The translations under genes were made by a program, and so were the position numbers. The notes below the pieces were generated by a model. The model was not told the DNA's origin. It saw only the letters and a program-made list of their open reading frames with translations, and did not search any database. Shown piece by piece: positions 5,952 through 38,582 of a DNA stretch of 64,000 nucleotides. Source of the DNA: [Leptolyngbya] sp. PCC 7376 (lineage in GTDB: Bacteria > Cyanobacteriota > Cyanobacteriia > Cyanobacteriales > MRBY01); assembly GCF_000316605.1 (NCBI RefSeq), contig NC_019683.1, positions 1,100,036 to 1,164,035 of the forward strand, given 5' to 3'. Position 1 is the first letter of the stretch, and every line of letters begins with the position of its first letter.

Positions 5952-6181
5952 AACTTTATGAAATAGTAGAATTCACCTCTATTTTTAGAAAATATTGCTA
6001 ATAAAAATAAAAATTCGTCAGCTTATTTTTTTAAGTAATACATTCCAAAATATTTATCTTGATTTTTTTTAAACTTACAAAGTCCAAATTATCAAATAGA
6101 ATCCCCAAAGAAATGATTATTGCTCATTCTTGCGAAAGGCAACAATCACTATGTTTTGTTTATGAAAGAGGATTGTAAATA
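5952..6181. other. AT-rich intergenic region before the EF-Tu paralogue
   Basis: A stretch of 230 bases that is much richer in A and T than the flanking genes, with A and T runs and no HIP1 octamer. A purine-rich GAGG about 10 bases before 6182 can serve as ribosome binding site for the following gene. I see no convincing promoter or hairpin. Confidence 0.5.
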
Positions 6182-7339
6182 ATGAAACCTTACATCAATG
6201 TAGGAACAATTGGCCATGTTAACCACGGGAAAACGACACTAACAGCGGCCCTTACAACTGTATTGGCTAAATTACATGGTGGAAAACCTTATGAATTTCG
6301 TTCTATCAATAATGCACAAACAGAAGAGGTAATGGGTCTCAAAATCGCGACTTCCCATGTGGAATATGAAACCTCAACTCGCCGCTATAGTCAGACAGAT
6401 CACCCAACACATACTGACTACGTCCAAAGCATAATTGTCGGCGCAGTCCCAGATGCTCGTATTTTAGTAGTTTCTGCCGCAGAAGACCTAATGCCCGAGA
6501 CCCGTGAGCAAATTCGGCTATGTCGCCAAGCGAGTGTCCCATCTATCATCGTTTTCATAAATAAATGTGACATGGTAGAAGAGGAAGAGCTTTTAGAATT
6601 AGTGGAAATGGAAGTTAGGAAATTACTAACTGAGTATGGTTTCCCTGGTGATGATTTACCAGTTATCCGAGGTTCGGCATTAGGTGCTCTCCACGGTGAA
6701 GAACAATGGGAAGCGAAAATTGTTGAGCTTGCTGAAGTTCTAGATACTTACATTTCTGAAGCAGTACAAGCTATTGATCAACCCTTCTTAATGCCTATTG
6801 AAAACGTATTTTCTGTTCAAGGCCGAGGGACTTTTGTAACAGGTTGTATTGAGCAAGGTATTCTCACTGTAGGAGATGAAGTCGCAATTGTTGGCATAAA
6901 AGAAACGGTGAGTACCACATGTACTGAGATTGAGAGATTCCGTAGGCTTCTTCATGAAGGTCAAGCAGGAGAAAATATTGGGGCTTTGCTTCGTGGAACA
7001 AAAAGAGACGAAGTAGAACGGGGGCAAGTCCTGGCTGCACCGGGATCGATTACACCTCATACTAAGTTTGAAGCAGAAGTATACATGCTAAGTAAAGACG
7101 AAGGTGGTCGTCATACTCCGTTTTTTAAGGGATATCGTCCTCAGTTCTACTTCCGAACCGTGGATGTTACTGGAAATATTGAATTACCAGAAGGGGTAGA
7201 GATGGTATTACCGGGTGACAATATCAAAATGATTGTAGAGCTGATCGCTCCGATTGCTATGGATGAAGGTCTACACTTTGCTATCCATGAAGGTAGTCGA
7301 ACAGTGGGGGTCGGTGTAGTTGCTAAAATTTTTGATTGA
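6182..7339 (+). CDS. divergent second elongation factor Tu
   Basis: A full-length EF-Tu relative of 385 residues with all three domains, which bind GTP and aminoacyl-tRNA in canonical EF-Tu. Kept: the GKTT P-loop, NKCD, GSAL, the catalytic His (His77, E. coli His84) and long identical stretches in domains II-III (for example [19 protein letters not shown]). Changed (E. coli numbering): Asp21 to Asn in GHVNHGKT, Arg58 to Met and Thr61 to Lys in switch I (MGLKIA for RGITIN), Asn63 to Ala, and Cys81/Gly83 to His/Thr in DHPTHTDY for DCPGHADY. The Thr and Gly normally contact Mg2+ and the gamma phosphate, so nucleotide cycling should be altered. The N-terminal SKEKFERTK stretch is missing. It sits outside any ribosomal operon, lacks HIP1 sites, and resembles proteobacterial rather than cyanobacterial EF-Tu in several indels. 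The domain call is certain; the function is unknown. Confidence 0.9.
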
Positions 7340-36152: not shown

Positions 36153-36617
36153 GATTATCTGCCTCTATTTTTCTGGAAATGATGAGCAGTTGAGTTTTGT
36201 TTTCAGCCTAACCTAGGTTTTTCTGGCTGTAATGATTCTGTTGTTGAATCGTTATTTTTTACTTCAACAAGCCAATGCACCATTCCTAAAATCAAAAGAA
36301 TTTATCCCCGAAAGCGTAGGATGCGTGGAGGCAGCAATAAATTTTGGATCATTGCCAATATGCTCCTATCTGCCGTAACGCATCTTTTTGAAAATTTGGG
36401 CGCAATCGACCATTCAAAATTGATGGGTTTTGCTCGATGAGAATTGATCACCAAAATTAAGCTTTTTCCTCGCGCCACCCATCCTACAAATTTGATCGCC
36501 GTAAGGCGAAAACGATCAGGCTACTCATCTCACAAATACCTCTCTGATCCAACTTAAAATTACATGCACACTACAAAAATCGCGCGAGGGCAGAGGGCAA
36601 GAGTGCAAAGGGCAGAA
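36153..36617. other. intergenic region with a degraded repeat
   Basis: About 465 bases without a gene. GATGCGT at 36320-36326 and ACGCATC at 36378-36384 form the ends of an imperfect inverted repeat (GTAGGATGCGT...TAACGCATC) of the kind scattered in cyanobacterial intergenic DNA; ACCCATCCTAC near 36478 may be a further fragment. The right end (36586-36615) has a reiterated GAGGGCA/AGGGCA tract directly after the caspase stop codon. Confidence 0.5.
36586..36615 (-). repeat. GCCCT-repeat tract 3' of the caspase-FGE gene
   Basis: On the coding strand of the upstream gene the sequence just after the stop reads CTGCCCTTTGCACTCTTGCC then CTCTGCCCTC, three near copies of TGCCCTY. It follows the possible variable region of the FGE domain, so it might form part of an initiation-of-mutagenic-homology sequence; this is inference. 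Confidence 0.45.
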
Positions 36618-38582
36618 TCACTGGGGGGTGACAACAACACGGAAACCGATAACGTCGGGGCGAACGCCGCGGGAATTGAAGTCACGAATGGCCGAACGAC
36701 AACGCTCTGGATCGAAGGCCCAAGCGCCGCCGCGAAGAACTTTTTGATCACCAGAACCGACAAAAGATTTCTGAGTTCTCGGAGTCTTGTAATTATCCTC
36801 AAAATCATCCTCACACCACTCCCACACATTGCCATGCATATCAAAAAGTTCAAATTGATTTGGCTTTTTTTGACCGACAGGATGCGTTCTGCAATTATTT
36901 CCAAGAATTCGTTTTCCATAGTTACCTGAATCTGTTCGCCAAATTTCTGAACTATCAATATTTTTATCGCCACTATTATCAGCAAACCAAGCATATTTTC
37001 CTAACTGCTCTGCATCATCCCCAAAATAATATTGAGTCGTTGTTCCCGCCCGACAAGCGTATTCCCACTCAGCCTCACTCGGTAGCCGAAAACTTTTGCC
37101 AGTTTGTGGATTCAGCTTCTCTAAAAACTCGTGGCAGTCATCCCAAGAAACCTGCTCAACAGGATAATCATCCCCATTCTGAAACTCTGACGGATTATCC
37201 CCCATTACAGCTTGCCACTGCCCCTGAGTTACTTGATATTTCCCCATATAAAATGCCTGGGTAATATCAACTCGATGCTGGGGCGCTTCTCGCCTAAAAC
37301 CATCCCACTTATATTTTTTGACTAACTTTTCGATCTCATCATCTGACATTCCCATCATGAAGCGGCCTTTCGGAATGAGAACCATATCCAGCTTCACCCC
37401 ATTCCCCAGCTCCTCGGTAAATGATTTCGGTCGTTCTTCTGTTTCTCGCTTTGGTGCTTTAGACGTCGCCGCTTGAGTCACCTGCTTTATCTCAGCAGGA
37501 ATCCATTGCGCCACATCCTCATCTCGTAGTCCCAACGACTCCTGAAACCGCCGCAACTTTTTAACATCCCGTTCCCGTAAGTCCGCTTTTTTCTGAGTCG
37601 CCTTGGTAACTATCACCTCAAACTTTTTCAGCTTTTCCTGCCGCAACCGATAGGGTTTCATCACCTCAGTTTCGATCGCTGCTGCTTCCGTTTCCTCCAC
37701 ACCCCAGCTCAGTTGATATTCATCCAGAGTCGCCCGATTAATCACATCAAACTCCCCTGCAATAAAATCAATATCCTCATGGTCTTCCCGCACCATTTCC
37801 AGCACCGCTTTGCGATATTGCACCAACGCATTCCCCTGGGGCGCATTCGAAACCGTAATTCGATAGCCTCCTTGCACCGGATAAAACTTCGGACTCATTG
37901 CCGGAGACTCCTGATGAATCTTTTCCTCCGTATAGCGATATAGCTCATCCGCCGAGATCATCCCATCACTATCCAGATCTGCTGCCCCAGTCCGAATCCC
38001 TTCCACTAAATAATGCGTGTAGATTGAGAGTTCCGAGTCCTCATGGGCAAAAGAATATTGTGTTGAAGTCGAGGATGTCAGAATTGCTCGACCCTTACCG
38101 CCTAGCTCATCTGGTTTAATATCGAGCTTTGCCTGCTCACCCTTTGCGATTAATCCCTTCGCAAACGCCCCACTAAAACAACAGTCCAGAATAATCACCT
38201 GTCGTTCTGAGCGACTATTTCCTATTTGCTGATGGAGATACCGCGCGTCCGTTGCTGTCGGCGGAATAACTACGGCTTTTTGGTCTTGCTGCGTCGCCGA
38301 CAACCCAAAATACAAATTGAATTGCTTGTCTCGCATTCCATGCCCAGAAAAATAAAAGAGCACGACATCTTCTTTTTGGCGATTCGTAAAGAGATTATAG
38401 ATAGCGATTTCCAGCGTGGATTTATCCGGATTATTCAGACATGCCACCTCAAAGCCACCAAGCTCCGCAGGCTCCAACACATTCCGCATCGCCTCCAAAT
38501 CCCGCGCCGCATTTGGAAGCTGCTGTTTCTCCTCTAAATGCTTATATTCACTGACCCCAACTAAGAGTGCAAACTTTCCCAT
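36618..38582 (-). CDS. orthocaspase fused to FGE-sulfatase domain
   Basis: A 654-residue fusion. Residues 1-245 are a caspase-like (C14, orthocaspase) protease: LFALLVG-type start KFALLVGVSEYKHL, catalytic His81 in FYFSGHGMRD and catalytic Cys135 in ILDCCFSGAF. An EF-hand-like loop, DLDSDGMISADEL (202-214), could bind calcium. A helical linker (about 285-375, ending RRFQESLGLRDEDVAQWI) leads to a formylglycine-generating-enzyme-like C-type lectin domain (about 390-654: MVLIPKGRFMMGM, RLPSEAEWEYACRAG, DMHGNVWEWCEDD, VLRGGAWAF and GFRVVV). The upstream EACC1-like gene ends 3 bases before its ATG, so both are one transcript. The predicted role is conditional proteolysis, possibly self-killing. 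The gene contains no HIP1 octamer. Confidence 0.93.
   Translation of the reverse strand: MGKFALLVGVSEYKHLEEKQQLPNAARDLEAMRNVLEPAELGGFEVACLNNPDKSTLEIAIYNLFTNRQKEDVVLFYFSGHGMRDKQFNLYFGLSATQQDQKAVVIPPTATDARYLHQQIGNSRSERQVIILDCCFSGAFAKGLIAKGEQAKLDIKPDELGGKGRAILTSSTSTQYSFAHEDSELSIYTHYLVEGIRTGAADLDSDGMISADELYRYTEEKIHQESPAMSPKFYPVQGGYRITVSNAPQGNALVQYRKAVLEMVREDHEDIDFIAGEFDVINRATLDEYQLSWGVEETEAAAIETEVMKPYRLRQEKLKKFEVIVTKATQKKADLRERDVKKLRRFQESLGLRDEDVAQWIPAEIKQVTQAATSKAPKRETEERPKSFTEELGNGVKLDMVLIPKGRFMMGMSDDEIEKLVKKYKWDGFRREAPQHRVDITQAFYMGKYQVTQGQWQAVMGDNPSEFQNGDDYPVEQVSWDDCHEFLEKLNPQTGKSFRLPSEAEWEYACRAGTTTQYYFGDDAEQLGKYAWFADNSGDKNIDSSEIWRTDSGNYGKRILGNNCRTHPVGQKKPNQFELFDMHGNVWEWCEDDFEDNYKTPRTQKSFVGSGDQKVLRGGAWAFDPERCRSAIRDFNSRGVRPDVIGFRVVVTPQ
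36621..36740 (-). other. possible diversity-generating variable region in the FGE tail
   Basis: The last 40 codons run from VLRGGAWAFDP through CRSAIRDF to GFRVVVTPQ. In retroelement-diversified FGE proteins this same frame (LRGGSW...CRS...R...GFRVV) is kept while the residues between change. Here the scaffold is present and the intervening positions (AFD, ER, IRDFNS, GV, PDVI) are free. No reverse transcriptase or template repeat lies in the window, so this would need a distant element. Inference only. Confidence 0.4.

Follow-up and report, generated by a model that had tools for sequence, protein, structure and literature searches.

The caspase-FGE gene and its 3' end

The window analysed here is a stretch of 64,000 nucleotides from [Leptolyngbya] sp. 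PCC 7376 (C1:1100036-1164035 of the single 5,125,950-base contig). It carries a reverse-strand gene whose product combines an N-terminal Peptidase_C14 (orthocaspase) domain with a C-terminal FGE-sulfatase/C-type-lectin-like domain, as identified by domain search. A caspase-FGE paralog, L028, is located elsewhere on the chromosome and shares the end of the gene and its 3' flank. The features considered first are as follows (window positions unless C1 is given):

36618-38582, reverse strand: caspase-FGE gene, ORF of 654 aa, stop codon counted in the coordinates
36616-36734, reverse strand: variable region (VR), identical in the window gene and L028 save for 21 sites of the template-A type
36586-36614, reverse strand: TGCCCTY-type heptamer repeat after the stop of the window gene
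36561-36615, reverse strand: 3' module common to the window gene and L028, with 5 ordinary differences, ending in ATTTTTGTAGTGTGCATGTA, the window copy of a 20-bp motif described below
C1:3344017 onwards: VR of L028, 2.2 Mb from the window gene

The protein encoded at 36618-38582 ends in LRGGAWAFDPERCRSAIRDFNSRGVRPDVIGFRVVVTPQ, followed by the stop, and all three elements of the scaffold named in the preliminary description (LRGGxW, PxxCRSA, and GFRVVV) are present there. The VR occupies the 3' terminus of an ORF whose product has, judged by sequence, a C-type-lectin/FGE fold. In a sequence search, the best PDB match to the FGE part was 2y3c, variable protein 1 (TvpA) of Treponema denticola (E 3.8e-27). 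TvpA is itself a DGR target, and it is not known to have a caspase domain.

The coding strand goes on after the stop as TTCTGCCCTTTGCACTCTTGCCCTCTGCCCTCGCGCG, made up of three TGCCCTY heptamers, an imperfect copy (TGCACTC), and one additional T. The repeat is present where the preliminary description placed it, but it lends no weight to a DGR, because such repeats are common and are also seen in many genomes belonging to the order. Of the weak matches listed for other genomes, most begin at query positions 133-139, within the repeat, which is probably incidental.

The resident DGR and its targets

The genome contains one RVT_1 match at E <=0.001, at C1:4208967-4209578. This reverse transcriptase (RT) ORF lies about 3.07 Mb along the contig from the window gene, in agreement with the earlier statement that the window holds no RT. 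It is adjoined by Avd (NF033474, 121 bits against an NCBIfam cut-off of 80) and accompanied by a template repeat (TR), the known TR:

C1:4210271-4210401: known TR, A-rich non-coding repeat

Translation of the known TR gives GGDWNNNPRNCRSAYRNNNSRDNRNNNIGFR. Three FGE tails, VR1 to VR3, match it at 84-88%. Over 101 bases they are mismatched at 15, 13, and 16 of its 29 A positions, respectively, and at 0/72 non-A positions in each case. The portion of PMC6642488 that covers PCC 7376 (NC_019683.1) describes one TR and three VRs, of which two lie in sulfatase-modifying-factor genes and one in a phytochrome sensor gene. One of these VRs belongs to a 1116-aa ORF and two to FGE genes, which matches the anatomy of the resident DGR; the targets are named there by protein accession and are equated here with VR1 to VR3 by anatomy only. 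Like the window tail, they show the FGE tail scaffold and A-type sites.

Some further features of the genome can be mentioned here. RT and avd (L025:13730-15150) are on the strand opposite to the TR and to both neighbouring VR genes; in 17 loci with an RT from other genomes, the RT is on the strand of the spacer that follows the TR, just 5' of it. Another FGE tail, L032 (C1:3445684-3445799, reverse strand), differs from the known TR at 22/29 A and 7/64 non-A positions and looks, from these counts, like an aged target of the known-TR line. At C1:4330231-4330987 (L134, reverse strand), broken caspase fragments with in-frame stops are 67% and 47% like the window protein.

A 20-bp motif, TTTTTTGTAGTATGCATGTA, is found at six places in the genome when up to three mismatches are allowed; the reversed pattern, used as a control, gave 0 matches in the genome. 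Five of these places are directly 3' of FGE tails, where an IMH and inverted repeat would be expected for a DGR target:

C1:4208607, 4211496, 1136596, 3344168, and 3445631: 20-bp motif (20 bases each) beside the tails of VR1, VR2, the window gene, L028, and L032

The sixth place (L138) is inside a 625-aa ORF, which we take to encode a NACHT-type ATPase; this copy was rejected as a DGR-linked site and ascribed to chance. At the corresponding place of VR3 the motif is absent, so that it is apparently not essential. A stem-loop is reported 3' of the VR of BPP-1 in the available portion of PMC12875486, whereas no conserved stem-loop or hairpin of this kind was found 3' of the window VR.

Signature of template-directed rewriting

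The window and L028 tails align without gaps, and their likeness extends about 57 bases beyond the stop. They differ at 21 of 101 bases, and the known TR has A at 18 of these sites (Fisher p 8.2e-10). Over 93 bases, differences are found at 18/29 template-A positions and at 3/64 other positions (p 4.0e-9); the three exceptions are compatible with A in an unseen template. Nearly all differences (19/21) occupy codon positions 1-2, and only four are transitions. The affected codons are as follows:

Substituted (n=12): A622, F623, D624, R627, I632, D634, F635, N636, V640, P642, D643, V644
Synonymous change (n=1): A631

Codon usage within and outside the tail provides a second line of evidence. In the 31-codon tail, 19/31 residues are identical between the window gene and L028, and 17 of the 18 informative same-residue codons are identical as well, compared with 76/140 informative codons in the rest of the FGE part, upstream of the tail. 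The published pair VR1/VR2 gives virtually the same counts (17/18 in the tail, 74/135 in the rest). A differently bounded count of the window/L028 codons yields 23/24 versus 68/131 (p 1.5e-5).

An ortholog pair, L031 and its counterpart in the sister genome G005 (L126), served as a control. Here, 30/31 residues and 15/29 codons of the tail are identical, and 2/16 differences are at A sites. The tail of this pair has kept its protein sequence while its silent sites have diverged, which shows that an FGE tail need not vary. No Avd match was obtained in G005. A weak Avd match in another genome, G002 (36 bits, cut-off 80), corresponds to a four-helix-like protein beside what is presumably a CRISPR type III locus, and was rejected.

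For comparison across the genome, 15 matches were grouped into 13 FGE genes, and 11 FGE tails were aligned with the known TR; L033, for which no tail fits the motif, and L034, which is longer by a codon, were left out. Among 148 genomes, no genome other than the own one has a match to the window tail comparable to that of L028, the best matches across the whole VR having 68-69% identity.

Reconstruction of the template and searches for it

Writing A at the 21 variable sites of the window and L028 tails yields a template, reconstructed from these two sequences only, with the layout of a TR and codons for GGAWTNNPENCRSANRNNNSRGDRHNDIGFR. The preliminary description had proposed that a near-copy of the tail with adenines at variable codons might be found in the genome beside an RT gene and avd. 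An RT, Avd, and a TR do exist together, as described above, and a TR cognate to the tail was not found with any of the queries used. Within the assembly, none was found with the window tail as the query (all 22 candidates scored, E <=10), by masked pattern, or with the reconstructed template as the query (best 3 of 341 candidates), nor was a second TR found via the spacer 3' of the known TR among the 2 of 5 candidates scored. These searches returned the two VRs, other FGE tails, the known TR, and short matches. Beyond the assembly, the raw window tail was not found among PLSDB plasmids, two exact tail patterns were not found in IMG/VR, and the reconstructed template was not found in phages. 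The known TR matched six PLSDB records, from other genera.

The reconstructed template matched 9 of 291 genomes at E <=1e-4, the own genome included. Intact TRs with a spacer and an adjoining RT are among these matches in five genomes, and they hold A at most of the variable sites (G015 17/21, G061 18/21, G130 18/21, G144 18/21, G271 18/20). The corresponding counts for four VR-like matches are 12/21 (G262), 8/18 (G267), and 12/21 and 7/14 (both G271). The presence of A at 17-18 of 20-21 sites in foreign TRs supports the 21 sites as template adenines, independently of the window genome. At non-variable sites, the five TRs from other genera agree with the reconstructed template at 61/79, 51/74, 65/88, 65/90, and 66/86 sites, and one VR from another genus at 61/73. 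At diagnostic sites, which separate the reconstructed template from the known TR, up to 14/18 in these TRs and VRs side with the former.

In PLSDB (E <=0.01), the reconstructed template matches only intergenic DNA of two Picosynechococcus plasmids, from PCC 7002 and PCC 7003:

pAQ6 of Picosynechococcus sp. PCC 7002 (L156), about 5985-6223: degenerate TR and spacer, 36/40 bases, E 1e-5
Plasmid of Picosynechococcus PCC 7003 (L157): degenerate TR and spacer, 34/40 bases

These remnants have lost about 26 bases of the TR, and 3' of it both carry the spacer that also accompanies the live TR. A is present at 13/14 (pAQ6) and 12/14 (PCC 7003) of the variable sites covered, and the agreement with the reconstructed template at non-variable sites amounts to 59/74 and 56/74, respectively. 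At 20 diagnostic sites, the remnants side with the reconstructed template at 11, with the known TR at 6, and with neither at 3. Neither RT nor Avd gave a match within 12-kb stretches around the remnants, and no Picosynechococcus plasmid is among the best 20 of the 22 records matching the RT protein. RT-less template remnants thus occur on plasmids of Picosynechococcus. They were considered as the closest relatives of the reconstructed template and rejected as such, as the five intact TRs from other genera are about as close. Because TRs and VRs from other genera agree about as well, the reconstructed template is not tied to a plasmid in particular.

The TR-3' spacer and RT-less template units

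In BPP-1, the TR, VR, and RT are combined in one cassette. According to the available portion of PMC12875486, the BPP-1 TR is followed by a structured spacer RNA that recruits the RT-Avd complex, and rewriting is directed by A. The resident DGR resembles BPP-1 in this respect:

C1:4210388-4210529 (L025:15389-15530), forward strand: TR-3' spacer, conserved structured RNA domain

Matches to this spacer were obtained in 32 of 291 genomes. Twenty spacer loci were fetched, 18 of them from outside the genus; a relative of the resident RT adjoins the spacer in 17 of these 18 loci, and an Avd match lies within 13 of the 18 short loci. For the analysis of RNA structure, 15 spacers were aligned (the live TR, the two plasmid remnants, and 12 plus-strand loci out of 19 from other genomes). 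The seven minus-strand loci were left out, including L162, which is the same site as L157. The 15 spacers have 25 pairs in common, and 12 of these pairs show double changes. On four of five measures of covariation, 0/500 shuffles reached the observed value, and all slid versions scored lower; on the fifth measure (further pair types), 80/500 shuffles reached it. No Rfam family was found above its gathering score, and a single match of 13 bits against a required 50 was taken as chance.

An intact template unit is found apart from any detected RT in G061:

G061:C1:3475399 (L178/L164): solitary TR, spacer, and VR gene, intact
G061:C1:4880617 (L151): second TR, accompanied by spacer, RT, and Avd and lying about 1.4 Mb from the solitary unit

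The solitary TR differs from the neighbouring VR at 9/32 A and 4/106 other positions, and no RT or Avd was found in 19 kb around it. This layout demonstrates that template units do occur separately from an RT encoded in the same genome. The distant RT of G061 would serve the solitary unit.

Origin of the window tail

The comparisons above show that the latest writing of the window and L028 tails used a single shared template, which was copied accurately at non-A positions and randomised at A positions. By the same comparisons, this template is not the known TR, and it is no other sequence recovered from the assembly; it would have been lost, or would reside on a replicon missing from the assembly. 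Our preferred reading is that the window gene carries at its 3' end the VR of a remote DGR target, written from a template that it shares with L028 and that was supplied in trans, with the cDNA made by the resident RT and Avd or by a lost relative (probability about 0.86). The proposal in the preliminary description of a DGR variable region, either served by a distant element or belonging to a former target, is thereby supported: the tail is well supported as DGR-written, and the RT and Avd are far off.

A variant of this reading is that the strain has a plasmid, missing from the one-contig assembly, on which the cognate TR persists in active form. The TR remnants on Picosynechococcus plasmids would fit such a carrier, and all window/L028 differences in the VR are compatible with template A, which suggests recent writing. 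We consider it unlikely, as the assembly forms one contig with 99.99% completeness, and the degenerate remnants lack an RT or Avd match in the 12-kb stretches around them and are not clearly nearer to the reconstructed template than TRs from other genera.

Gene conversion between the two paralogous tails without reverse transcription, with positive selection then acting on ligand-binding residues, would also homogenise non-variable positions past the stop, and the changed residues do sit in the presumed binding loop. It does not explain why an independent TR has A at 18 of the 21 differing sites, why the published DGR pair VR1/VR2 shows the same codon counts, or why TRs of other genomes hold A at nearly all of the same sites. 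The ortholog control, where no Avd was found, has a tail that is protein-conserved and silent-diverged. Gene conversion is therefore very improbable.

Even less probable is that the known TR at C1:4210271-4210401 currently serves the window tail as a remote target, the class in which a rule of 50% identity or more would place this tail. The tail agrees with the known TR at 62 of 101 positions, above the 50% threshold for remote targets given in the available portion of PMC7517822, and mismatches are enriched at A (23/29, compared with 16/72 at non-A positions). An active target would be expected to show no or almost no mismatches to the resident TR at non-A positions, and each of the three published targets has 0/72. 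Because of its 16/72, the known TR was rejected as the writer of the window tail. Moreover, the window gene and L028 carry the same non-A letters against the TR, and such fixed differences common to both tails speak directly against the known TR as their source.

The least probable explanation, that FGE tails vary at A-type positions anyway, draws on many other tail pairs of the genome that also differ more at TR-A positions, but among the 66 pairs compared, the six known-family pairs differ at 0/64 non-A positions, window/L028 at 3/64, and the other 59 at 7/64 or more (7-28/64 for pairs of this kind), and the codon comparison refutes it.

Relation to known remote targets

Remote DGR targets of cyanobacteria, some with caspase domains, have already been described in PMC7517822. 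The remote variable proteins in the available portion of that paper resemble the window gene in having a C-terminal CLec/FGE VR, a caspase N-terminus, and a location far from the RT, and the window gene may be listed in the supplementary tables of that paper. There, remote targets are tied to the DGR of their own genome by at least 50% identity, whereas the template of the window tail differs from the resident one and was not found. Likewise, unlike the three targets in the portion of PMC6642488 on this strain, the window gene and L028 were written from another template. A metagenome survey states, in the portion available, that its own approach would not detect remote targets (PMC8144416). 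No account of target pairs with a missing template or of plasmid TR remnants was found in the literature searched, which leaves out most subscription journals.

Proposed mechanism and implications

In the mechanism that we propose, the sole detected RT and Avd (4.21 Mb), or a lost relative, would make the cDNA, and the template RNA would come in trans from a second TR-plus-spacer unit. This unit would since have been lost or be carried by an unassembled replicon, and its carrier could be chromosomal, as in G061, or a plasmid, as the Picosynechococcus remnants suggest. The cDNA would then replace the tails of both the window gene and L028. The variable residues are expected to line the ligand-binding face of the FGE/C-type-lectin fold, and, by analogy, rewriting may alter what the caspase-like protease responds to.

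Remote DGR targets have so far been assigned by plain similarity to a resident DGR, and this rule would name the wrong template here. Two chromosomal targets bear the imprint of an unfound template, so that target pairs can reveal missing templates. The RT-less units of G061 and Picosynechococcus suggest that templates can be separate and perhaps mobile, and served by a distant RT. A tentative and rather doubtful extension is that solitary RT-less TR-spacer units, chromosomal or plasmid-borne, borrow the resident RT-Avd in trans and imprint their own VR family on FGE genes genome-wide. If true, the target repertoire would shift by the gain and loss of templates, and not by A mutagenesis alone, and a unit that has since vanished would have left its mark in the window/L028 pair.
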